A DNA stretch of 64,000 bases. Origin: Pegea sp. RAD2-039. Lineage: Eukaryota; Chordata; Thaliacea; Salpida; Salpidae. The notes below the pieces were generated by a model. That model worked only from the letters and a program-made list of their open reading frames with translations. It made no database searches and was not told the origin of the DNA. Shown piece after piece: positions 12,594 to 62,200 of this stretch; position 1 is the first letter of the stretch; each line of letters begins with the position of its first letter. Both the position numbers and the translations under genes were made by a program. Location of the stretch: the NCBI GenBank assembly GCA_034620365.1, contig JAQGEQ010000084.1, positions 2,666,001-2,730,000 of the forward strand. Reading direction: 5' to 3'.

Positions 12594-15439
12594 TCAGTTA
12601 TTCCATAAGGACCCCCACATTTGCTTTTCGACTTGTTGAAGATTTGCCCGTAAGTTTTCAGCTATAGTCTTTAGCTGGTCTCTTGATTTATCTCTAAAGT
12701 CCAAATGATCAAATTGTTGGAACATTAAAGACTCATCAGAAGATATACTTTTGCTTTGTATTAACCGTTTAATTTGACTTTCAGCTTCTCGTAGTCTTTC
12801 TCTAACATCTTTTTCATGTTTCTCAGCTAGTTTAGCACGATTAGTAGCATCATTTGCTTCTTTTCTCCATGCTTCACAAGCGTTCTTTGCTTGATTCCAT
12901 GAATTTTCCCACTGTCTACATTTTTCTTGCATTGATTTGTATTCACCTAGGGTCACCATACCATTATTATCACTATTTAAAAGATTATCTCCTATAGGTG
13001 GAAGAGAAGATGGCATTATTGAAGAGTTCATACCTCGCAAAGCAGATGGTAACGAACTACCACCTGAGTTAAAACTGTCTCTAGTGTAGTGATCAAATGG
13101 TATAGTTAATGGATCCGTTTTGGGAAATAATGAATTATCATTGACCAATTGAACAGAACTTGTTATTGTTGATTCATTATTCCAAATTCGTTGAATTTGT
13201 TTTTGATCTACACTAGCGCTACAAATACTATCACTAAAAACATTTTCGATTCCTGCCTCCACATGGCTCTTAGATGTATAAAATGAATCATTAGAATATG
13301 GTGGAACTGATTTAGAAATGTCTGAAGGAGATATACTCGAATAAACTGAATTTAGAGCAGTGATTCGATTTGAATTACTTCTTGGCCAAAGATCCACTGA
13401 GCTACCAACGCTCCCATAATTAGTGATTTGATTATTTTCAGCCATAAATCTTTCAGAACCAATAGCTTTTGAGTAAGATGCCACTACATCATTTCTGGGT
13501 GCTGCAATGGGAGATTCAAGTTTAGAAGTCGGAGATTGAATTTGTGAATTGAAATTTCTGTTTAGTAAACTTTCATTTCCATCAAAGAAATTAATACCAA
13601 GTGTCGAAGGTGGTTCGATAACACCAACATCGTTGCCTAAACTTGAAATAATACTTTTTTTACTTTCTGTTTCGATTGCCAATGTACTTTCTTCATCATT
13701 TGCAGCAATATCAGTTTCATCTTCTTCATCTAAGACTCGTATCTCTTGCTCAACGTGAGCAAACGCACAAAATGGACCACGAGGACAATATCCAGTCTGA
13801 CTCATATCATGGCATTTAGAGCTTTTATAAATTTCTGGATGGAACTGTTGTTCTGTTCTAGTGTGACAAAAGCTACATCCATCTCCCTTTTCACATGATG
13901 ATGGGTCTTTCCAATCATCTCCTTGCTTCACATTTGGACAAGGAGTTGATCTAATAAAGATAAAAGGCAACCAATTAGGGGTGGTGAAAATAACATTTAC
14001 TCATTTAATCTATTTAAGGAGTTAGTCTCAAAGTAGTTGCTTAGAAGATGAGTTTTTAGGACTTTCGACCACCGAAGTCAAGCTTTGTCTGTAAAGCAAG
14101 TTTTCTTTGTTTGGTTTATATTGTGAGAAAAGATATAAAAAAAGGAACTTAATTTATCAAAATCATCATGCGAGTATTTGTCAGATTAATTAGAATAAAA
14201 TTATCAGGAAAATATTGGAATATAAACTTTGGACCAGAGACTTCACAATGCTATCCACCGTCAACCACCGAGCTGAAAACTTGCTTGTGAGTGCTGAAAG
14301 GTTTTTTTGGTGGAGATGTCTTACAGGTCAAGCTATATTTTTAAACACGAACTCAAACTAAATTCAGCTAGATGAGATTCAAGCTGGATTCAAGCTATTC
14401 AATGATTGATTCTGAAGTATAAATAATAAAGTCGGTTTACCTATATTTAAATTTCTTCGGGTTGCGTCTTCTGTCTTTTGGATTATGATATTGAGGACAA
14501 GCATACCCTTGTCGACAGAGACGAGGTGGTCTCTTACAAATATCAGTTTTATAATTAGAAAGTACATAACCAGAATCCAACCACTTAGGGTCTTCATTGA
14601 CTATCTTCTCAGCTAAATTTACAACATCAGATCTAGGTATATGATCACCAGTACCATCTTGACAAGATTCATTATTTTGCTGTTCACGGACATCATATAC
14701 AGGGGGTCTCAGGTCGTCACTACCATGAGCAAACGCACAATGTGGTCCATTCTTTACACAATTACCTCTCGATTCAGTTTCATGTATACATGTTCCAGTT
14801 TTGTAATATCTCAAATGATATCTTCTTTCTGTGTCACCAGTGTTTCTAGTAAAAGTTGTTTTTATTCAATAAAGATATGAACATTTGCTTGGCAAATAAT
14901 TTGGGTATTATAAAATTACACCACAAATATTCAAACGATTTTCATTTTATAATTAGATGAACTAACAAAGCCATTAAAAATTGTCAGTGTTAAAATTCAT
15001 CTCAACTTATTAAGAGACTTGATGTTATTTATATATCAAACTCAACAAAACTGGTACCTAAATTTTATTAAGTGAAAAAATAGTGAAAACATAATAATCC
15101 ATCAATACAATAATGGCCTGCTGTGGTTGACGAAAGTAACAAAAATATAATAATTTACCTATGAATATAAGGACAATCGTCTCCAATAGGGCAAATACCA
15201 GTTGTTTCATCATATTTAGTACAATATGAATCAGCACTATAATTAAATGTCCCATCTCTTTTTCTTATTGGTCTACGACGTCTTTGATTAGAAAAATGCC
15301 AATAAAAACATGTAAAAGGTCTGTGTTGAGTACACTTATGTTGTAAAAATAATGGACATTGATTAACTCTAAACTCTTTTAAATAAGTGTAATGAGATGG
15401 TTTTTCAGTTTGATGAGGTGGGGGCGTTATAGACATCAT
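12594..15439 (-). CDS. unk: Unkempt-family CCCH zinc-finger RNA-binding protein, 3 coding exons, no RING
   Basis: Exons 15159-15439, 14441-14845 and 12594-13950 (minus strand) total 2043 nt and encode 680 aa. Unkempt binds UAG- and U-rich mRNA motifs and represses translation; in animals it acts mostly in neurons. The first 300 residues hold six CCCH fingers, including HYTYLKEFRVNQCPLFLQHK, QRRRRPIRKRDGTFNYS, YKTDICKRPPRLCRQGYACP and EQQFHPEIYKS, nearly identical to vertebrate and insect forms. A long Ser/Asn-rich middle follows, then a conserved coiled coil (EYKSMQEKCRQWENSW onward). The reading frame stops directly after L-Q-Q-V-E-K-Q-M-W, where other Unkempts continue into a RING domain. 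So the RING is lost, or sits in an exon I cannot see joined by a weak donor near 12,617. The start is the upstream ATG of two adjacent ones; an in-frame TTG precedes it. Confidence 0.93.
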
Positions 15440-18400
15440 CAAAATGAATTCTTGATAACAAAAAATAACTTATAAATCTATAAAAGGATGCCAAAAACCT
15501 TGAGCCTAAAATAAATGAAAAAAACCTACAATTTTGTTATTTTAACTGAAAATATGATTGGTCTAGATAAAGTTTTAACAAATTTTATTAGTGAAGATAG
15601 AAAAGTTTTTAGTTCAGTTTTTTCTAATTTATTGGTTCTTAACTCTCCTTGGTGCTATTGTGACATAAATACCGATGTAAAAAAATTAGTAACCTATTTC
15701 ACTGGACTAAATAAGAAAACAAATCTTTATATATTGTTACTCTTCTAAAACTTGATCTTTGAAAAAGTCAAGAATCATTGGCCTAACTATTTAAGCTACA
15801 AAATATTATTTAATTTAGTAAAATTAAAATCACCACAAAGATTTATCCCAATTAAAACTTTTAAGAATACTCAGCAAACTAACAGCTTTTTGAATAAGTT
15901 TTTTTAATAAAGTGACCACAGCTTGGAATCTTCATCTCAACCCCATCACTAAAACAAATCATATCTTTAAAATTTAAGTTTAAAAAGTAAGATTTGAGTA
16001 ATTTTGTTGGCAAGTGATACTATGCAGCCATTTTCTTGATTTTTATCTCCTATAGTTTCTCTCTTCTTAAATTTGTTATATTAATGCCTTTGTAGTGTTT
16101 CTATATTTTCACATCACCGATGGTAAATTGATGATTTACTTTCAAACTTTAGTGTAAAAAGAAGATAAATTACGAGTTTAAATAACTTTAAGATAAAATT
16201 CTATGATATATGTCTGGATAAGCATAATAGATATAAAAGTACATAAGAAAAACAAGCAAAATATGATATAAATTAAGTATATACTAATAGAACATAAATA
16301 ATTCAAAAAAATTTGAAAATAACAAACAAGTTTTAAACTCCGATAACTACTAAACAAGGTTTTTGTAGAAACACTGTACAATATTGTGACCAAATAAGGC
16401 AATATTCCTAAAACTGTGAAATACTCAACTATAAATAAAAATAAATAAAAACTTTGTAATATAAATTCCTTCAGCTGTATATTCTTATGATACAACTACT
16501 TTCTTTTCCTTTTAATAATATAAAAATTAAGTTTATACCTTCATATTCATATGGTAAATTTTATAAATATTTTGTTTAACTTTATTACACTAAACAAAAC
16601 ATTATCTTTAAAGATATTTATCAAATTATAATTTAAAGAATATTTAAAAAATTTGCTGACCATAAAACATATTTCAAAGAAATGAAAAGTTAAATAATAT
16701 AAAACAAAAATGTTTGGACTAATCTACATAAAACTAATATCACACCGAAAAAAAAAAAAACTACAACTCAAGGAAATATCTATAAAAGGCTAGTGCAAAA
16801 CTTAGGAAATATCTATAAAAGGCTAGTGCAAAACTTAGAAAAGCATATTTCAAAACAAAACTTAACTCCAAGAAGCAAAAGCTTTTGAAAAAAAAGAAGG
16901 TAAAATTAAAATAATTGTTTAAAACTTAAAACGCTAATATATATACTTACAAAAAGCTTGTTTAAGTTCTTTAAGTAACTGTATAATAATTTTAAACATT
17001 AAATTCTAAGAGTTTAAACACATATAGAAGAAATTAACTTTCACTGGCAAAATCAATGCTCATTATAAGCTATATAGCTAAATATTGGTCTTATAAAACC
17101 ATTTCAAAAATTAAATCATTAGAAAAAATGTGAAAGCTAAACATGAAGCATAACTTTTTTGTAGATAATGTATATAACCCATTAAAAATTATATAAAGTA
17201 AAAATGTCAAAACTATTTTAAGCTTGTTTAAATAAAAGCTTAAAAAGGGATAAATGAAATACTAAAGTTATATAAAAATTAATACATTATTTCAAAAAGT
17301 AAGAGTAATATTATTGTTTTTAATAGTATATTTATTAGGTAAAGGAAATATATTACATAAACATAATTTTCATTCTAAAAGAGATAAAAAATTCACCCAG
17401 TTTTCTTCTTAAACTTTTTAATTTATAAATATATAAATTCAAATTCTTTACAAAAATTTAACCAAAAACATAATAGTGCATATTGAAAAAATGGCCACTT
17501 ATTTCGGCCATAAAATTATGAAAAATATTACATAAAATATATTACATAAAATAAATTATAACTAAAAGTTGATAAAATTCAATAAAATTGCCATTTATCG
17601 CTATAAATTTCAGCTTTACTTTTAACTACAACAAACAGTTTTAATCATGATTATAAAACTTAAGAAGGGAACAAAATACTAATATAATAAAAATGTTATA
17701 TGAAACATTTCATCATTTATTTTTAAACTGAACTTTTCTAAGAATCAAAAAGAAGAGTTTTATATTCAACTATTAGGACAAAAGTAGGTCAATTTAAATT
17801 ATGGCTTAAATATATACAAAAAACTAAATAAACTATACAAGTATATAAATAATAAGTCATATTAAAAAATATGAGCAACCATTAAAGAAACTAAAAGGCT
17901 TACAAAAGTTTTTAAAAAATGTTACATCTAAAAAGTTTAGAAACACAATATTTCAATAATTAAAGAAAATTCAAAACTTTAAAAACATTTTCACAGCATC
18001 TAACAACGAATTTCAGTTTTACAAGAAAATATACTATCTATTCAGACAGGTTACTTTTATAATTAAAATGTTTTATTACAAATGATTTATTTCAATGTAA
18101 TCCACAAAAGTAAAGATTAAACAATTTAATAGAAAAGCCATAAAAATCAGTAAATGTAATACATGTTAAATAAATAAACATAAAATATAATCTAGTGTTT
18201 AATCTATCTGTAATATGTTTTACTTTTATTAAAATTTGTAATATTACTAAAATAAATGATAAATGTAATTAATGCAGAGAACAAAAAACTATTTTATTTG
18301 AACACGTTTTCAATATTATACTTTAGCAAAAACTTTCAATGAAATAAATATCATTCATAATCATTATTAGTGATGAGAGATAAAAGATTACATATAAAGT

Positions 18401-21005: not shown

Positions 21006-22995
21006 GAACATAAGAGAGCCTTTTTAATCTTGAAAAAAGAACCTAGATGCTGAATTGATGTATTAGTCTACAAGAGTGATAGACATCAAGTAAGCGTCCA
21101 AATGTTTGATTAGTACTAAAACTACATATTGACCATAATGATATCAAAGTAAAATGATACTAAAGTCTTCACTTAAAAGACATCAAGACTACTTATCTAT
21201 ACTTAAGTTCACATTCCATTGCCTTGAGAAAATTGTTCTTTTGAGTATACTTTAACACTTGTGATATCAAGCAGCTAAGATCAACAAATCTTTAGTCTTT
21301 GATTTATGAGAGTCACAATAAAATATCATTTGGAAAATTTGAAAAGTATGTGCAAGATTTTTCCAGGGTGACCTACAACAAGAATTCTAATGTGTTTGAT
21401 GTATTTGATCTAAAAACCGATTATTGAACAAAGTTTTAAAATAAAACTTCGAGTAAATACACAACAAATTAGAAAACTCAGTTTTGAAACAAATAGTTCA
21501 AATCACTCCTAAAGTTATTTTCCTAAGAGAATTTGTTGAATTTTTCAAGTTTGTAAATTTATTAATGTCTAAAGTAAAATTCAAACAATTTGAAATTAAG
21601 TAAAGGTTAGAAAAATTAACAATATAAAGATAAAAAAGTGCTATAAAAAAGAATAAAACGGATATTTTTGTATGAAACCATCAACTACTTGGAAATCATT
21701 TTTGAAATAAGATTAAAAAAACTTAAATTTAAACAAAAACACTAACTATTAATATTGGGCTACATCAGAAAGTCCTTTCATTATGACACAAACCCAAATT
21801 CCTAAAACTAATTTTGACCTAAAATTATGAAAACATTGCTTTGTTTGATGTTTATCTTTTTCTAAAATTAGGATTAACTAAAGAGTTCTTCAAAAGTTAT
21901 TGACTGTTATCTTAAGACTTAGAACTTAAAACATATTTATCTTATTCCAAAATTAATATATTTTTTAGTTGCAGACTAAATACTAATTAGTCAACACTGA
22001 AGTAGACAAGAAGCATAGACGTTTTTGCTTTGCTAAAAAAATCATTAGCTTTAATCCACAACTTGATTTTCTTTCGAGCTTAAGTATAACTTGCAAATTA
22101 ATCTTGACGAAGTAAAAATTAACTACTATGGAATACTTGCTGCTCGATTATATATGAAACTGCTAATTATTACTATTAATTTTTACGCTGGAAACTTATC
22201 AATTTTATAATATAGTTTTAATTTTTTTAAGATTCGTTATTAAAAGCTTTCTTTATAAACTCTTAAGTTACAAATGTTCTATTTTAAGAAAATTTAATAT
22301 ACTTCGAAAAAGTATACGAACATTTATCTTTATTTGATCGAAAATTCGATTATTATTTTATCTAGTATTTATTTTAAGTATTTTTAATGATAATAACTTT
22401 TGACAACTCAATAAGCTTAGTTTATACCAGAAACATATCATTGGATTTACATATTATTTTTTGGGGAGTGTATACCAAGAGTAATGAGTGTTGGTGAACT
22501 AAACTACATTTTCATTCATCAAGTAAAAAGTCAAATTTTAATAATATATTATTTGAAAAGTAGTCTATACAGAAGTTACTTTAAAGTCAATTTTAAATAA
22601 TTTTCAACAAACAATAGTCGGGTCAATCACTCTTCTAGATGATTTGCAATCAGTTATATCATCTTTGAAAAATTTCAAAATTCAATAATACGACTATGCC
22701 TAATTGTTTAGCATACTTAATGATTTAACTAATACTTACTGATTATATACTTTTACAGCGATTATAAAAAGGCTGCAAGCTGTTATATCATAAAAAGCAT
22801 CTGGAAGAATTGAAACCAGAATCAAAATAAGAGTTAAAAAAATCGTCAGTTACTAATTTACAATAGTTTTATTTCAATGCAGTACTGGGTGACATCAATA
22901 GTTATACATTTTTACTGATGATAATCTAATTATACATTTTACAATGACTTTACGATATAGAGTATCAAACAAAAATCCATTAAGAGATCAAATGA
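21006..22995. other. AT-rich gene desert
   Basis: No exon-like segment could be supported here on either strand. It would contain the 3' UTR of the peptide gene at 22,996. Confidence 0.45.
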
Positions 22996-23825
22996 TTATA
23001 TTTTTGGAACTATATTGCGCATATACAGAAGAAGCCATAATTTCCTCATAGCATTAATCTTGTCTTTCATTACCGCAGTATTGATTCGAATATCAGATAC
23101 TGCATCTGCTCGCCTAAAAAAGCATTTGTAAAAGTATTAGTTTAAGTATAGAATTTAAGAAAAATAATTTAAACTAAAAGGCACTATCTTAAATACCAAT
23201 GGTCTTCTAAAAAACAGGTAAGACATTCATTGTTTTATAACGTTATTTTAACTAAATAGAAAGAATATTCTTAAAAACGTTAACTGAATTAATTAGTTGA
23301 ATTATTTAAAAGAACAAATTATTTAACAGATTTATTTTTTTAAAACTCATTAAAAATTAATTTTTTTTCTTCAAATCAAAGTACCCTCAAAACACGAAGG
23401 ACTTCTATTAACAATTTGTTATTTCCATTTATTTGAAAAATATATTTTTACTTCTGACTCGTGCATATTAAATAAATCCAAAGAAACTGTCAAGTTTTCT
23501 TGTAATTTAGCATGTGTAGAACATTAACTATATTTATAAAAATATTTATGATAAATTACTGTTTTTCCTTTTTCTAAGTATTTGATTTCGACTTTAACAT
23601 TATTACAGAATGATAAAAAATACATAAAAAATAATCAAATAGCATATTTAGGTTAATATGGATTAATTTTAGTAAAATCTACGTGATTTACGCATCATAC
23701 TTTTGAGTTTCTTTCCGTGTAGATTGATCGCGACCAGGAATCTGGTAAGGTGCACATTGAATACTGTCAATAATAACCATTGTAAGACAAAACAAAAAAC
23801 TTGTATAAACTAATTTGTAAGCCAT
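22996..23825 (-). CDS. Putative PTH-like secreted peptide precursor A, 2 exons
   Basis: Exons 23692-23825 and 22996-23113 (minus strand) join at phase 2 to an 83-aa protein. The intron has donor gc/gtaaat and acceptor ttttttag. Residues 1-24 look like a signal peptide (MAYKLVYTSFLFCLTMVIID, then S-I-Q-C before A-P-Y). A short propeptide with a dibasic R38-K39 follows. The remainder fits the parathyroid hormone pattern without gaps when Ala49 is set to position 1: A1 V2 S3 D4 I5 R6 I7, R20, L22, W23, L24, M28. Vertebrate PTH has V2 S3 E4 I5 Q6 L7, R20, W23, L24 and L28, and PTHrP begins A-V-S-E. In vertebrates such ligands act on a class B1 receptor: the first residues activate it and R20, W23, L24 and L28 dock on its ectodomain. 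The ATG lies directly after an acceptor (ggttttcag). The gene model is convincing. The family assignment is inference, supported by the paralogue at 33,643. An alternative is another class B1 ligand family. Confidence 0.6.
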
Positions 23826-26777
23826 CTGAAAACCTGGAAAATTCACTGTAATTTTTGTTAACTTTTAAAACCAGATTTCTACATTTTTATATGAAACATG
23901 CGTGGGGAAATATTTGAAAATAACTTTCTTCTAATAAATGAATTCAGAGTTTAATAAAGTAACTTCACTTGAAAAGGTATCATTTAAACATACCTTTTTA
24001 GAAAATATGATACTATGCATCTAGCTTTATAAAATTATTTTATAATTATTATGTTAGTTTATTTATACCTATATCAAGTTACAGTTGTGAAAATTTGTTA
24101 TAAATACATCGTCATCTCAAATCAAAAATAGAAGATAGACTATGAGGCAATGATTTATAGTAATCCAAATGATCTGTCTAAACTCATTAAAAGATGTTTT
24201 AATTGTAGCTTAAAAATAAGTTCATTTTTTATAATTAGCTTAAAAATGTCTCATTTAAAAAACATCTAATAAATTAAAAAGCTATCATTTTACAAATTAT
24301 ATCTTACAAGAAAAATTATCTCAAATTAAATGAGATACCTTCTTCCTGATCATGCTTTTACTAATGATGTACAAAACTCTGAAATGTTTTTATATTGTCA
24401 CTGGTGAAAACATGAAAGTGAATGGAAAAATGTTCTGTTATATTTTTTGTAGAATTTTTTTTGTCCGTTGACTTTTTAAAGATTTTCTTCAAAGGTAGGA
24501 TTTGGTGGCTTTGAAACTTTGAAATTAATATTCAAAAAGGGCAAGACAAAGTAAGAGATTGTGAATGATATGACCTTTTTATAAATAAATAATCTTTTCA
24601 ATAATAAAACTACTTTGGCATTAGTTGATAGCTGATAATATTTTAAAAGTAATTAACAAAATAATAACTTTTACTGAGCTTCAATAATCAACATGTTTTA
24701 ATATATAAGTTTCAATAAATTGTAAAATGTCTTTATAATTGATTACTTTATTAGGCGTATTACTTCAATAGAAAAATATGCTTTAACGTTTTATTAGCAG
24801 TGTTTACAGAGACTTTATATATTTTTTGGCGCATAATTTACTGTTATTATTGTAAGCATGAAATGCTTCATCAATAACAGACTTATAAAAAGAAAGATAA
24901 TTATTTTCAAAATAATTGAAATTGAATTTTTGTATACAACTAAAATTTTTAACCTTTAGCATCTAGTCTGTTTCTATTCATTTTTTTGAAACAAAATAAT
25001 CAGACATTGCGTTATAATTATAACACCATACTAATCTTTAATCTAATATTATCTTTATAAGATAATAAGCAAGATTATAGTTGTGATATCATTTCAAGAA
25101 GCTTTGTAAGTATATCAAAAAACATTTTTCATTAAATTCCCTCTGGATGATATAAATGTCAAAACTCTTGTCAACTTTTAATACGATTCTGATGTCTTTA
25201 GATGTATATTGATCCTTTTTCCTTGCAGATTTTATAACATGAAAAGCTTATGAGATGTACTAAAGAAATCATATTTAAAATCAAATATTCTTAAATTATA
25301 TTCTTGCATTTAGAAAAGCATGTTCATAAAATAAACAAAATTTATATTTGATTGATGTTGTTGAAGTCTACAGAATTCACTTTAAGAGGAAACTCTTAAA
25401 AACAAATTATTTTGAAATGGAATTGAAATCGTAAATCAATATTGTTTGCTTTCTTAACAGGTGGTTTGCTGATAAATTGAGCCATCTTATTTAGTTCTGT
25501 ATGAATCTAAAGCAGAATAAATTAACTTGTTTATACTGATTGCAAATGACAACCTATAATACATCCAATAAAACTATACAAATTATTGTTCAATAAAGCT
25601 ATCATTAAAATGTCTTTTTTGATTTATCCTAAAATCATTTAGTGAATGTTTTGTTTATTGTAAATATTTTCTAAGTTTTTTACTTAAACAAATCAGTGAT
25701 ATTTTAAATACATTTTTAGATCAACCGATCAAAAATTATCTTCTATTAAATGAAAATATATTTATACTTTTTTAAAATCACTTTTTTTATATTTGGGATG
25801 CTGAATCTAATTAATTAGTAATTTTATATAAATTCATTAGGCTAAAAATTATTACATTTGATTTTTTACCGTTGGACTAACAGTATTTAGACAAGGTAAT
25901 AAAACTTGCTTAAAATTACTCATACAATATTTATGAAAATGATTAGGTTTCTTGTAGTTTATAGATTTTCTTGTACAAGTTTGTTTACTTGAAATTAATA
26001 TAAGGTCAAGAAATATTTTTAAATTAACAAAATTAAAGAAACTATTTATACATTTCTTATAAAATAATAATGAATAATACTTAATTAATATTTAATTGAT
26101 ATAAAGATAATAGTAACTGAAGAAAATACTTTTAATAATCTAAGAATTGACTTTCGCATGTAAAAACTACTTTTGTTTCCTTTATATTTAGTACATATCA
26201 CTTTATATAAATACGATTATTATTACTATTGTAGATAAACATATAGTTGAAAAAATTAATCTACAAACTAGGCATTATTTCAATATTTTTTAAATCAATC
26301 TAAGACAACTTTTATTTGAAAACCTTTTACGAATAACCAATTTTTCATTTTTAAAGTATTTTAAAACAGTAATTCTTAAGTTATAGATACATTTAAGCGA
26401 ATACTTGATAGAAGAAGCAAACAGTTTATTCTCACTCAAGATTTTTCATTATTAACACGGCTAGACTTTTTACTTTAATGTATACCACATCTTTAAAACT
26501 GCAACTTAAAAAACTACTTACTGATAACTTGAAGTTTAATATTTAATCTTTGGCTATTCATACAATAAAGCTAAATGTAATCTTTCTAGAAAAAACACGA
26601 CTTTTATTATTTCACTTTAAAAGTGTTCTCAAGTATCTCTGAGTCTTTTTTAAATAACTAAAGCCTCACATTTTAACCACAACAATTCTTATTACTTACT
26701 GCTCTAATGTTTTTTCTGTAATAAGGTCATGTATATTTTTTAAAAATAGTTCTGTTACATGACAAACCAGTTATAAG

Positions 26778-41079: not shown

Positions 41080-42852
41080 ATGACCAAACCACAGCAAAAA
41101 GTTCCCTGGGGACACTTCCGCTCTAATCATTGGTACCAGTTCGATCTCACCAAACGGGGCCTTTTAGGCAATGTGCTTTTAACAAGATTATACCATAGAG
41201 CTGATGGTAACAGCGATTACTCTCTAGTATGCTACAAATTGCGTCTTTTAGTTAAGATAAAATACAAAACAAAAACAGCACATAAACTGCTCTTACTCAT
41301 CATCATCACCATCGCGTTCTGAAAAATTTGTACAATTCTCAACTTTAATGGATAAGTTGGCATCCTCAACGGATACCACCGCCTCCTTGACTTGGTCTAA
41401 AATAAAGGTTAAGATGCACGATAGTCCACTAGAAGCTTTCGGAAAGCAAACTCATAATAGCGAGGACTGGTTAGAAAAAAACACAGACACGTTACTCCTC
41501 CTTGTTAAGCAGAAACGTCAATCGCATGTAAAAAACCAACATTTATGTAGTCCAAAGACTCTCAGTAATTTCCGTAAAGCTAGAAAGACATTTCGCAGAG
41601 CTGCAAGAATATGTGATAATGAGTTTGGGCTTTCTAAAAGCGCAACTACCTAAACTGCAGCAGCAAGGGGTAATACCAAATCAGATGGTATAGGGACGCA
41701 GCCGGGCCCACAAAACTTCTAACCGCTCCTTTACAATCAGCTACAATTATAGAGATCTTGTTTAATAGAGATGAACAACTAGGGAGAGGTGGGTCGAGCA
41801 TTATTTGCTTCCTACTCCAAACACAACACTGTGATGAGTACTGCACTGGATAAAAAGAGAAGAAATCACCAAAGCCAGTTCAGCTATGGGTTCTGGAAAA
41901 GTACTAGGTAGCGACGGTATACCAACTTACTCACTAAAACATCGTAAAATTGATGTTGTGCCCTTTCCCCACAGTATTTTGATCAAATGCTGGAGAGAAA
42001 AAGAACCACAAAACAACCAAGGACATGATTTTTTTCAGTTTGTCAACTACAAGAAAACCCAAAGAAAAGCCTTTCTAGATTGCGTTATTATTCAATGCAT
42101 CCATAACCTGCTTTATGCTGATGATGTCGTAATTGTTGCACATTCAGCAAAAGACCTACTGATGCTGATCAACCAATTTTCATTAGCCTGTACAGAGTTT
42201 GAAATTAAAACTAGCCAAGAAAATACAAAAGTTATCAACCAAGGTGTTAACGTTCTACAGCCAATCAATATCAATGACTGTGACGTTGAGGCTGTAGATA
42301 GCTTTTCGGCTCAAAAATTACAGCATCCGCAGCAAATGAAGGGGAGATTAACATCCGCATCAGTAAAGCACCGGGTAACTTTGCACGGTTTACTTTCAGG
42401 GTCTGGGATAATCCATCACAACTAATCTGTAAGGAATTGTGTATAGTAAGCTGTTGTACGCCCGCTTTGTCAAAAGCTAATGAAAATAAACTCAACGCCT
42501 CTCATTTATGTCGTATATTTGGGTGTCAGCAAAAGACCTCAGACAATAAAGTCTTAGAGTGCACTGGTCTGACAACAATATACAGTCTGCTAGGCAAAGG
42601 CTTTGCTGGCTCGGATACGTCCGTCGGATGGAAGATCTGTATTATAGGGAATTATCAAAAGGCAAACGCAACATCAACCGTCCTTGTTTTCGCTTTAAGG
42701 ATACTTGCAAGCGCGATATGAAATCGCTTAAGATCAATACTAGCAGCTGGGAAGATATTGCAGCAGATCACTCTGAATGGCGCTCTCTGCTCAGTAAACA
42801 ACTGAAGAACAGAAAAGAAAATCTAACATCAAAGAAAAGGAAGAAACCTTAA
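41080..42852 (+). mobile_element. Decayed non-LTR retrotransposon with internal deletion of the RT domain
   Basis: Ordered plus-strand fragments of one LINE polyprotein. The end of the endonuclease is at 41,080-41,280 (K-P-Q-Q-K-V-P-W, then HRADGNSDYSLVCYKLRL). The spacer is at 41,350-41,650, and the start of the reverse transcriptase is at 41,886-42,005 (GSGKVLGSDGIP, I-K-C-W). There is then a jump directly to the catalytic block LLYADDVVIVAHSAKDL at 42,106-42,160. The C-terminal region is at 42,570-42,850 (L-C-W-L-G-Y-V-R-R-M, then K-R-D-M-K-S). About 150 or more residues between the RT start and Y-A-D-D are missing, and the frame shifts several times. The style matches LINEs whose fragments are often annotated as craniofacial-development-protein-2-like. 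Dead copy. Confidence 0.88.
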
Positions 42853-44976: not shown

Positions 44977-53365
<8,389 letters not shown>

Positions 53366-57586: not shown

Positions 57587-57941
57587 GGTGAATCGCCTTT
57601 TTTAGTGCAATTATAAAGTTTTGTAACATAATTTAATCAGCTATTCAAAAAAATATTATTACTTATGCAAAATGATAATATTTAAACAATAATAAAAAAT
57701 ATTTTACATTTATTTTAATCATTTAAAGAAAAACTGTTTTAATATCCTAAAATTTTACTTATCAATTTCTTTTTGTATGTATATTATAATATTATTATTT
57801 GCTTATCTTTTTCTGGTGATTTTTATTTGGTCTTATACATCCTTTACAAGTTTTCTATTATTTACTCTAAACAATGTTAATATTGAAGGTAACTTTTTTA
57901 TAATAATACTTTTGTGTTTAAAAGACTTCATCTAATCAAAT

Positions 57942-59192
57942 ATGGATACCATTCAGCTTAATGAGGAAAGTATATGTTTTTCTTTGAAAAATAAAGCCCC
58001 TTTTATCAGCAAAAAAAATTTTGAAAAGTTAAAAAAACTGGAACTAAGCCGAGCAGTATTTATTTCTTCTGTTTCTTATTTGTTCAAAGACTCATATTGT
58101 AAAATGAAAATTCTTGATGGTTTTGGTGGGTTCGGACTTGCTTCAACACAATTATTACAAACGTTTGGTGGACAGATTGATGTAACTCTTAATGTAAACA
58201 ATCTTATTCTAGAAGCTTTAAATTCTGATTCCAATCATAAAAAAATTATTAACACATATAATGTAATAAGTGAAGATTTAAATGTCATTATGCATCAACA
58301 AAAATATGATTTAATTTATTTAGAATCTACTGGTTCTGTTCTTTTGTACTTAGAAGCTGCTTTAAGATCTATAAATGATAACGGATTTCTTATTTTAACC
58401 TCATGTGACATACTCTCACTATTAAATAAGAATCCTACCACAACTCAAAGGCTTTATGGAGCTAAACTTTATAAGACGCCATATTTAAAAGAAATGAGCA
58501 TAAGAGTAATTATTTCTAATGTTGTCAGAGCGGCATCTAAATGGAATAAAGGCATAAATGTGAAAACATGTGCTGTCACTAAGGATAGCTTCACTATTGT
58601 TTGTCAAGTATCTTCAAGTTTGAAGTTGGCAGAATCAAACAGCAAATTAATTAGGTTTTTGGGCCATTGTCTCCAATGTGAAGAAAAAGGATTTCTCAAC
58701 AATGGATTATATATAACTAATTTTATAACCCCAAAGTCTTGTAAATGTGAAGTAAGCAATCTTAATCCTGTACTAATTCTTGGTGCTATGTGGGCAGGTA
58801 AAATATTTGATGCTAACTTCACGGGTAGACTGTGGCAGGTCTCTTTATCATTTGATTTTAAAAGTAGCACTGCTAAATACTTTAAATCTGCATGCTTAGA
58901 AAGTCACTGTTTCAGTAAAATGTCAGGTGAAATTGAATATTTATCAAATGTGTCTGATGAAGAATCACCAATCAAACAAATTACTGCTGATAGTAAACAA
59001 GATGAAGTTGATAGGCTTGCATTTTATTTTGATATAAAAAAGCATTTTAAAAGTAGCTTGACTCCAACAATTGACTCTGTGATTACAAAATTAAGAAATA
59101 ATAACTTCAGAGCAAGCCGCTCTCATTTTGGTGATAATTGCATCAGAACATCTGCAAGTATAAACCAAATAAAATTGAGTATTTTGTCTTAG
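57942..59192 (+). CDS. TRMT1L: TRMT1L-like tRNA guanine N2,N2-dimethyltransferase family protein
   Basis: One uninterrupted exon of 416 aa. TRMT1 dimethylates G26 of tRNAs, and its paralogue TRMT1L has been linked to G27 of tRNA-Tyr. TRMT1L-type features are the SAM-pocket loop ILDGFGGFG (57-65, human D-A-F-G-A-T-G), RLYGAKLYKTPYLKEMSIRV, VRAASKWNKGI, a zinc-type H-C-x2-C followed by C-x-C (about 243-270), and a C-terminal block (SRSHFGDNCIRTSASINQ) close to the human S-R-T-H-F-D-x3-V-R-T-D-A. The usual D-P-[FY]-G catalytic motif is replaced by L-E-S-T-G-S at 127-132, so activity is doubtful. The protein is shorter than human TRMT1L because the N-terminal zinc-finger region is absent. The next gene, YARS2, begins 100 nt after the stop. 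Confidence 0.85.
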   Translation: MDTIQLNEESICFSLKNKAPFISKKNFEKLKKLELSRAVFISSVSYLFKDSYCKMKILDGFGGFGLASTQLLQTFGGQIDVTLNVNNLILEALNSDSNHKKIINTYNVISEDLNVIMHQQKYDLIYLESTGSVLLYLEAALRSINDNGFLILTSCDILSLLNKNPTTTQRLYGAKLYKTPYLKEMSIRVIISNVVRAASKWNKGINVKTCAVTKDSFTIVCQVSSSLKLAESNSKLIRFLGHCLQCEEKGFLNNGLYITNFITPKSCKCEVSNLNPVLILGAMWAGKIFDANFTGRLWQVSLSFDFKSSTAKYFKSACLESHCFSKMSGEIEYLSNVSDEESPIKQITADSKQDEVDRLAFYFDIKKHFKSSLTPTIDSVITKLRNNNFRASRSHFGDNCIRTSASINQIKLSILS

Positions 59193-59263
59193 ATTGAAGA
59201 AAAAATAATTACAGAAGACTTCATAGTGAACAATTTCCTATTTTATTCAACTGTTTATATTAA

Positions 59264-59281
59264 TTAATATTTATTTTTTAG
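59264..59281 (+). other. Splice acceptor just upstream of the YARS2 start
   Basis: A T-rich tract ending in ttttttag stops 11 nt before the YARS2 ATG and 89 nt after the TRMT1L stop codon. No room is left for an obvious promoter plus a cis 5'-UTR exon, so a trans-splice site is the simplest reading. Inference only. Confidence 0.45.
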
Positions 59282-59292
59282 GTTTATTTATA

Positions 59293-62200
59293 ATGTTTTT
59301 GAAAGTAGCTCCTAGGAAATTGTTAATTTCAAATCATGCTCGAATAACGTCCTCCTTACGAATCTTTCACCATTCATCACAAAAAAACTCTAATAAAGAG
59401 ATAAAACCAAGGAGCATTTTACATTTAAAGGATCGTGGTCTTTTATATGATCTTTATCCTGATCCTCGCCAAGATCTTACAAAAATCTTTAAAAAAAAAC
59501 AATGTTTTTATTGTGGGTTTGATCCTACTGCTGAAAGTCTACACGTTGGAAACCTTCTTTCGATCATGATGTTACTACATTGTCAACAAGCAGGTAATCA
59601 ACTCGTACCTACTGTAATCTCTACTCACTTCTTTAACTATCATAGGTCATGATGTGATTGCCCTGGTTGGATCTGCCACAGCAAAATGTGGGGACCCTTC
59701 AGGTCGTTTTACTGATAGGGATCAACTGGAAGCTGACGTGTTAGATAGAAATATAAAAGGAATTAGTAATTGTATTCGTTATGTTTTTAACAATTATGAA
59801 AGTGATTCGTATCCGGGAAGACTTCAAGCCAGTTTACCTCCTTTAAAAGTACTTTATAATGGTGATTGGTATAAAAATATCAATGTCATTGATTTCATTA
59901 CAAATGTATTCAAGAACTTCAGATTAGCCAATCTTTTGGGTGAGTTTGCTTCAATTTTTTTTGAAATTTTGTTTGATTCATCACATCTTTACTGATATAA
60001 ACATTTGGTGATGATTGAAGATGATAATTTGTCACTTCTACAAAAGATTACATTTCTTATTAAGGAGCTTTCTCACCACACAATTAAATATATGTTTAAA
60101 TAAATTATGATAATCTAAAGTCTGATGAACATATATCAGAATCAGACATCTATCTCCAACTCTGAAATCTTTTCTGGGATTTAGTAAAATTGACGCGGAT
60201 TTGTTCTATAAGCGTTAAAGTTTGAAAACTTCTTTTATTCACGGGGCACCTTTCGGTGTACGATCAAATATATTCCCCAAAGGAACAATTTGTAGTCTGG
60301 GTCAGGGGAATTCCCAAGCTGGAGCATTACCCAATAGCTTGGTGTTGACAACTGGTCCTGATCTGTCGTCATTAGACCTTTTAGCTGCTTTGATTGCAAC
60401 CTCTGCCGGACCGTTAGATCTTGGGTAGTCTGCTGATGATAATCTATAGACAGCGTCCCATTTTCTTAAAAAGGGAGTTTTGTTAGATGTATGACAATAT
60501 ACAACTCAGACAATATACTTGTTAGTAATTTAGATGTTTAAAAAATGTAATCAAGCACAAAAAATTTTTTTTAATTTCATCAAAAAAATTTCAAATAATT
60601 TTCTTTCTATTTTTAAATAAAAATATCGATTTAGAGAACAAATACTGAAAATATTTGATGTAAAATTCTGTTTTTAGCTATGAAATCGATCCGAAACCGT
60701 TCAACAACTAGCAGTAGTGACAGCATGTTGCTATCTGAGTTTGTTTATCAAGTTTTTCAATCATATGATTGGCTTCATCTTTATGATCAGTATAACTGCT
60801 TCTTCCAAGTTGGTGGGATCGATCAACTTTGTAATGTTCAATCCGGTGTCAAGCTACTTAAAAGGTTTTTATTTTCAGTAAAGAATTAAAAGACTAAGTT
60901 CTCCTCTAGAAATGTGATAAAATCTCTGATTTATAATCCAATAAAAGTAAAAAATATTAAAATTTAGTTTCTTGATTCATAAAAACTCTTTGAACAACAA
61001 AACCAAGCCAAAAAATTTTAGACGAATTTTGAGCTAATTGGCCAAATCAATCGACTTTATATATTTGATCAAACAATTTTTCAGAAGTCGAAATGCAGAT
61101 GGAGTGTTTGGTTTGTTTACACCTTTATTAACTACGCCAAAAGGCGAGAAGCTCGGAAAATCACTTAACAACACCGTTTGGTTGAATCCAGAGAAAACAT
61201 CTCCATTCGAATTTTATCAATATTTTTTTCGTCAACCTGATTCAGTTGTTGAAGAGTCAGTTTCAGCTGAATCAATTATTTCTTCTCTTATTTGTTATTT
61301 GCAGATATTTGAAATATTTCACTTTCATACAATTAAATGAAATTGAAAGTATTATGATGAAGCACAACAAAAGTCCCCACCTTCGAAACGCTCAGTTGAT
61401 TCTTGCAAAAAATGTCACTAAGATTGTACATGGAGCAGAAGGCCTAAAATCAGCTGAAAGGTAATAAATCCTAGAAACAATCTATTAAATAGGCAATACA
61501 GGTCCCCCATTTGTATGTTTGTGGTCCGCCTGTGTGGTATAGTGGTTATCACGCCCACCTACCAGGCGGGATGTTTTGGGTTCGAGCCCAGGCGGACACA
61601 TGTTGCGACAAGAAAAAGTCCATAAAAAACGAAGAAAAAGGGTAAAATCCTGCTGCATGTGCATCAACTGGATCTTCATAATTTATGCCCTAGTACATAT
61701 GGCTGTTCTCGGCCGAAGCAGGATAAAAAATGCTAATGGTAGTTCAATAAAAGTTCAGTTGAATCAATTAAGCACCCTGACATGCTCCCACCAAGCAACT
61801 TGTCCTACAGACTAATCTTAATGATCTTATTTTCTTGTAGAAGCAAATCACTTTGTATTCTTTTAAAGTAAATGTGAAAAAATTCTTTGAAAATTCAATA
61901 ATTTCTTTTTCTAACTTGAATAAAAGTATAATGTAGAAATTTCAAACATTCAGAAAATAACACTGTCTGTATTTAGATGTACACGAGCGTTGTTTTATGG
62001 AGCAGTTGAAGATTTAGAGCGCTTAACTCAAGATGAAATTGCAATCACTTTTTCTAACACAACTATTATAGACGCTGTTCTTGAACCTGATACGACAATT
62101 TTAGATGCTTTACTCATGACGAAGGTTCATCTTTGGCTTTAGAATCTTTCTTTAATTAACAAATCACGGTTGAATAAAAAGTTAAAGAAATTGGTTTATT

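Follow-up and report, generated by a model that had tools for sequence, protein, structure and literature searches.

Does a short, split open frame in the genome of a salp encode a ligand of the parathyroid hormone (PTH) family? The window analysed here, a 64,000-nucleotide stretch of Pegea sp. DNA, carries on its minus strand (23825-22996) a two-exon open frame whose spliced coding sequence of 252 nt translates into 83 amino acids. We conclude that the locus is probably a genuine but unannotated tunicate gene for a secreted peptide, most likely a ligand of the PTH/PTHrP/TIP39 family. Support for the PTH reading comes from the coding signature of both exons, a gene layout like that of PTH genes, the family preference of the peptide, and PTH-type receptors in the same genome. 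The preliminary description of this DNA had proposed a PTH-type core and pointed out that such ligands are best known from chordates. That core is still the best-supported reading, with PTH-type receptors present, but any phylogenetic surprise is smaller than implied because the host is a tunicate and thus a chordate.

The gene model holds as first described, with both exons, the spliced length and product, and a GT..AG intron whose donor (GTAAAT, following a C) lies at 23691 and whose acceptor, CTTTTTTAG, ends at 23114. The same GTAAAT donor hexamer occurs at the first modelled intron of R1, a receptor gene discussed below. Base composition sets the exons apart: GC content is 0.343 in exon 1 and 0.357 in exon 2 (without the stop codon), compared to 0.206 in the intron and to 0.233 and 0.247 in the 1-kb flanks, and such exon values are reached by about 5% and 4% of same-length windows between 20.6 and 40.6 kb. 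By codon position, GC content of the coding sequence is 0.43/0.35/0.27. An acceptor-like TTTTCAG immediately precedes the ATG, and the candidate TATA box TATAAATA together with the upstream GTATGT donor leave room for a 5'-UTR exon without proving one. That there is no gene at all, only two chance open stretches joined by chance splice signals, is very improbable: the exons are short, the DNA is AT-rich and the protein database search returned no homologue, but the exons are GC-rich against intron and flanks and asymmetric by codon position, with an ATG right behind an acceptor-like site and an AATAAA downstream.

The precursor is single-copy, as a search of the whole assembly (105.7 Mb in 387 contigs) at E<=10 recovered only its own two exons. 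In a separate count, TTAGGG telomere repeats gave 92 forward and 11 reverse matches, compared to 0 and 2 for the control.

Table 1. Features of the candidate peptide gene (window coordinates) and of class B1 receptor genes in the same genome; a slash within a sequence marks a splice point.
Feature	Position	Strand	Description
Coding exon 1	23692..23825	-	ATG, signal peptide, most of propeptide (residues 1-44 and two bases of codon 45); open frame, GT donor
Intron	23114..23691	-	578 bp, phase 2, GTAAAT...CTTTTTTAG
Coding exon 2	22996..23113	-	End of codon 45, Arg46, C-terminal peptide, TAA stop
Signal peptide MAYKLVYTSFLFCLTMVIIDSIQC	23754..23825	-	Residues 1-24, read directly; hydrophobic core; cleavage after C24 by eye
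Predicted mature peptide ADAVSDIRINTAVMKDKINAMRKLWLLLYMRNIVPKI	22999..23109	-	Residues 47-83; starts ADAVSDIRI; PTH-like core from AVSD (23103)
AATAAA, candidate polyadenylation signal	22868..22873	-	About 120 nt 3' of stop; consensus match only
Candidate 5'-UTR intron	23826..23993	-	AAAAG/GTATGT at 23994/23993 to TTTTCAG/ATG; sequence match only
TATAAATA, candidate TATA box	24060..24067	-	Consensus match only; AT-rich DNA could yield it by chance
R1	C258 ~1765.1-1772.5 kb		PTH-type class B1 receptor
R2	C258 ~1782.2-1779.0 kb	-	PTH-type class B1 receptor
R3	C258 ~1742.8-1736.2 kb	-	PTH-type, placed by tree and by eye only
Glucagon/GLP-1/GIP-receptor-like class B1 receptor	C21:2340892-2341739		Placed by PDB matches

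The 83-residue product reads as MAYKLVYTSFLFCLTMVIIDSIQC / APYQIPGRDQSTRKETQKYDAR / ADAVSDIRINTAVMKDKINAMRKLWLLLYMRNIVPKI, with slashes at cleavage points set by eye, in keeping with the signal peptide, short propeptide and C-terminal peptide proposed earlier. If these points are right, the arrangement would be the one expected of PTH/PTHrP/TIP39 precursors, in which a signal peptide and a propeptide come before some 34-39 mature residues. Processing is the weak point of the PTH reading as judged from the precursor: directly before the core there is no dibasic site, only a lone Arg (KYDAR/AD), and the nearest dibasic pair is RK at residues 37-38. The precursor ends in VPKI and a stop, and lacks the Gly plus basic residues that would signal C-terminal amidation; vertebrate PTHs are not known to be amidated either. 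A helix is predicted at positions 2-34 of the fragment 46-82 with a mean pLDDT of 86.3 (single-sequence input, no control). The hydrophobic moment was uninformative, since the peptide, human PTH and human TIP39 were all inseparable from shuffles.

How closely does this peptide resemble PTH? MAFFT aligned the core with human TIP39, PTH and PTHrP free of gaps, and eight positions chosen after seeing that alignment agree with the three hormones: V2, S3, D4, R20, W23, L24, M28 and I31. Position 15 is Lys in the peptide and hydrophobic in all three. The gapless coincidence with PTH/PTHrP claimed at the outset needs correcting at L22, which differs from both hormones (E22 in human PTH, F22 in PTHrP). 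In register-free gapless matching, the best score fell on the PTH core with AVSD over AVSE, and with 3000 shuffles the PTH family reached p=0.015. Register-optimised shuffles gave 0.14 for the glucagon family, 0.41 for CRF and 0.71 for calcitonin, the other families of class B1 hormones compared. A known member put through the register-optimised test, TIP39 against PTH/PTHrP, reached p=0.005, so a true distant member scores somewhat better than the peptide. Taken singly, two PTH sequences pick the AVSD register (p=0.024 and 0.0047), while PTHrP (p=0.008) and TIP39 (p=0.19) match the peptide best in other registers. A TIP39-specific kinship, hinted at by Y29-M30 in the MAFFT register, was not borne out by that register test.

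A motif met by human PTH, PTHrP and TIP39 and written after the alignment was seen, [VIL][SAT][DE]x15Rxx[WF]L, occurs once in the six-frame window, at the peptide. Two occurrences were found in total among 60 block-shuffled windows (mean 0.03), and none in 137,691 bases of other loci of the same genome, a set trimmed of 12 overlapping loci and of L046 onward. A looser form showed no enrichment, with 3 occurrences in the window and a shuffled mean of 1.9.

In the genome, the Pfam PTH profile (PF01279; 2 candidates scored, none at E<=0.001) and the TIP39 profile (PF14980; 1 candidate scored, a C12 match at E=5.06) did not find the peptide gene. Human TIP39, a true member, is likewise missed by PF01279. 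We also scored the peptide with fixed-register PSSMs. They were built from one PTHrP and from 22 unique cores each of PTH and TIP39, supplied by 48 and 72, respectively, of the best 120 proteins of the mixed-profile search described below. Its scores were 1.6 bits (combined), 1.9 (PTH+PTHrP), 3.0 (TIP39) and 4.2 (PTH), values reached by 21, 34, 37 and 15 of 20,000 shuffles, respectively. The peptide nevertheless falls below the cross-model scores of true members (5.5-11.9 between TIP39 and PTH/PTHrP): human TIP39 obtains 11.9 bits on the PTH+PTHrP model, and PTH and PTHrP obtain 5.5 and 6.0 on the TIP39 model. On each of the four models, at least 6 of 48,306 windows of the same genome, a set that includes overlapping loci, outscore it; some of these top windows are low-complexity. 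As far as the PSSM sources are named, they are mammalian, which may have made the models too specialised. The preliminary description would have given up its reading had a profile search put the peptide clearly in another family, or given no signal while shuffled controls scored as well. The outcome is mixed: PF01279 and PF14980 miss the peptide, yet few shuffles score as well.

With the 83-residue precursor as query, no protein in the database shared three 5-residue words. We also searched with a mixed profile that combined the peptide with TIP39, PTH and PTHrP. Of 195 candidates, 175 proteins scored at E<=10; each of the best 120 among them carries PF01279 or PF14980, and those with a species name are mammalian. 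Because this profile draws its search words largely from the human peptides, it could overlook tunicate relatives.

A ligand of this kind would need a receptor, and the PTHR-like class B1 receptor anticipated earlier is indeed present, as three PTH-type genes. A profile search returned 49 7tm_2 matches in the genome, of which we read 13 loci and assembled four receptors. R1 matches PTH1R (E=2.8e-124) and PTH2R (9.5e-114) in the PDB ahead of the secretin receptor (4.2e-86). R2 likewise prefers PTH1R (1.4e-87) and PTH2R (4.1e-84), with the glucagon receptor as the next non-PTH match (1.9e-61). Among the best 120 of 3246 matches, R1 is 88% identical to an environmental sequence and its best named matches are tunicate (Ciona 56-57%, Phallusia 55%, Clavelina 58%, Styela 56% identity), the ascidian proteins being "PTH2R-like" (55-58%). 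Environmental matches of this kind might point to a pelagic host, though only as a guess. We built a 24-row tree from 20 of these 120 proteins and four sequences of this genome, with a glucagon-receptor-like row as outgroup. R1, R2 and R3 cluster there with the five named tunicate proteins, 13 rows in all (99/95), on a branch separate from the ascidians (91/92); R2, R3 and the outgroup are long branches whose positions the program flags as unsure. All three genes lie on contig C258, inside a stretch of about 45 kb (1736-1782 kb).

PTH receptors are already known from Ciona, where PMC3483286 and PMC2396169 report two, compared to the three clustered genes found here. Elsewhere in the salp genome, a series of similar 7tm_2 matches at 445-548 kb of C26 suggests a tandem receptor expansion. 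Beside adhesion-receptor-like exons, a long frame of Val-Val-Asp-Asp repeats (L010:2064-3245) is probably an intronic tandem repeat.

The fourth receptor raises the possibility that the peptide is real and secreted but belongs to another class B1 ligand group, glucagon/PACAP-like, and acts on this glucagon-receptor-like gene. The gene at C21:2340892 matches the glucagon receptor best in the PDB (6.1e-67) and stands closest to glucagon, GLP-1 and GIP receptors, and VIP is the best single glucagon-family match to the peptide (p=0.043). We consider this assignment quite improbable, as the glucagon family overall reaches only p=0.14. Glucagon, PACAP and secretin peptides typically begin with an N-terminal [HY][SA][DEQ]GxF motif. 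The salp peptide has no such start, and hmmscan of the precursor gave no Pfam family at E<=10, Hormone_2 included. A Hormone_2 match at C1:1329064-1329132 (L049; 23.1 bits, E=0.0128, just over the cut-off) is surrounded by stops and is probably due to chance. On tunicate receptors of this type, PMC7251081 gives no tunicate homologue of the PACAP/GCGR-like gene, and PMC2396169 gives three GLPR-like receptors in Ciona.

The alternative with the strongest case is that the gene is a genuine lineage-specific secreted peptide whose likeness to PTH is accidental. The peptide was picked from the whole window by the reader who described it, so similarity alone is not decisive; taken by themselves, the sequence comparisons are suggestive, not conclusive. 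Their significance, only p of about 0.015 to 0.001, was drawn from a large search space, no profile matches, PTHrP and TIP39 favour other registers, and the processing site is weak. We still regard an accidental likeness as unlikely, because the PTH register, the family positions, the gene layout and the PTH-type receptors all concur.

According to the gene descriptions in PMC3009671 and PMC4354418, one exon of a PTH gene carries the prepro region and the exon after it the mature peptide. The salp locus matches this order, with its intron inside the codon before the putative Arg cleavage site. The peptide shares the start AVS[DE]-I-[QR]-[IL] with vertebrate PTH, and K13, R20, W23 (F in PTHrP), L24, a hydrophobic residue at 28 and the lack of amidation with vertebrate PTH/PTHrP. 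It differs from them in lacking Lys-Arg before the core, in Lys at 15, in lacking a long C-terminal tail and in escaping PF01279, and from PTHrP also in that the latter's own best match lies in another register. With TIP39, in the MAFFT register, the peptide would share a two-residue extension ahead of the PTH start, if the mature form begins at ADAVSD, as well as identical A3, D6, R22, W25, L26, Y29 and M30 (TIP39 numbering), and both peptides end their precursors. Against TIP39, free gapless matching favours another register without significance (p=0.19), and PF14980 misses the peptide.

The functional counterpart in protostomes is iPTH/PXXXamide, strictly amidated according to PMC7224569, PMC8557429 and PMC8398477; the first of these also describes a C-terminal GXX signal for amidation/cleavage that is strictly conserved in iPTH and, for Tribolium, a KR site. 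Compared by description, the salp peptide resembles iPTH/PXXXamide/QSGamide in a Ser-Asp near the N-terminus and a Pro near the C-terminus, and differs from iPTH in lacking both the GXX signal and the KR site. One could imagine a surviving intermediate, combining AVS[DE] and R20-W23-L24 of vertebrate PTH with a Ser-Asp start and a Pro-Lys-Ile end that recall protostome PXXXamide/iPTH (such as PYKIamide and PIKIamide of the oyster), which would make vertebrate PTH and protostome iPTH one ancient hormone family. Vertebrate PTH and protostome iPTH are described as having no sequence homology, and we judge such an intermediate distinctly unlikely.

On the PTH reading, the peptide is probably a new member of the chordate PTH family, in a group to which reviews already credit PTH-like peptides. 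Two reviews (PMC4354418, PMC5640766) attribute PTH-like peptides in tunicates and amphioxus to the bioinformatic survey of Mirabeau & Joly 2013; compared through these citing reviews, host group and expected receptor type match ours. PMC3483286 discusses the seeming lack of PTH/PTHrP-type ligands among invertebrates and reports that a TIP39 gene was not found in Ciona or amphioxus. Our searches of open-licence papers turned up no tunicate PTH sequence.

If the PTH reading is correct, the signal peptide would direct the precursor into the secretory pathway, and removal of the propeptide before ADAVSD would release a helical peptide of 35-37 residues. By analogy with PTH biology, its C-terminal half (R20-W23-L24-M28) would engage the ectodomain of a PTH-type class B1 receptor, and the N-terminal AVSD would enter the 7TM core and raise cAMP. 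Its partner would be one or more of the PTH-type receptors R1-R3 of the C258 cluster. Beyond the gene model, these steps of expression, processing and binding are our inference. A single-copy candidate ligand with three clustered receptors would form a concrete tunicate ligand-receptor set. With it, the part that PTH signalling played before vertebrates could be tested in an animal that has neither bone nor a parathyroid. The peptide may be an invertebrate cousin of the hormone that controls calcium in the human body.

The rest of the window holds several other recognisable features. On the minus strand lie CCCH zinc-finger exons of an Unkempt-like protein (12594-15469) and an ABC-transporter nucleotide-binding exon (49438-49740), and on the plus strand reverse-transcriptase-like fragments (41261-42852; RVT_1 match under the cut-off). 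A TRM-type tRNA dimethylguanosine methyltransferase frame of 418 codons (57936-59192, +) is followed by a tyrosyl-tRNA-synthetase-like gene (59230-61340, +). In human, YARS2 and PTHLH presumably both lie on 12p11.
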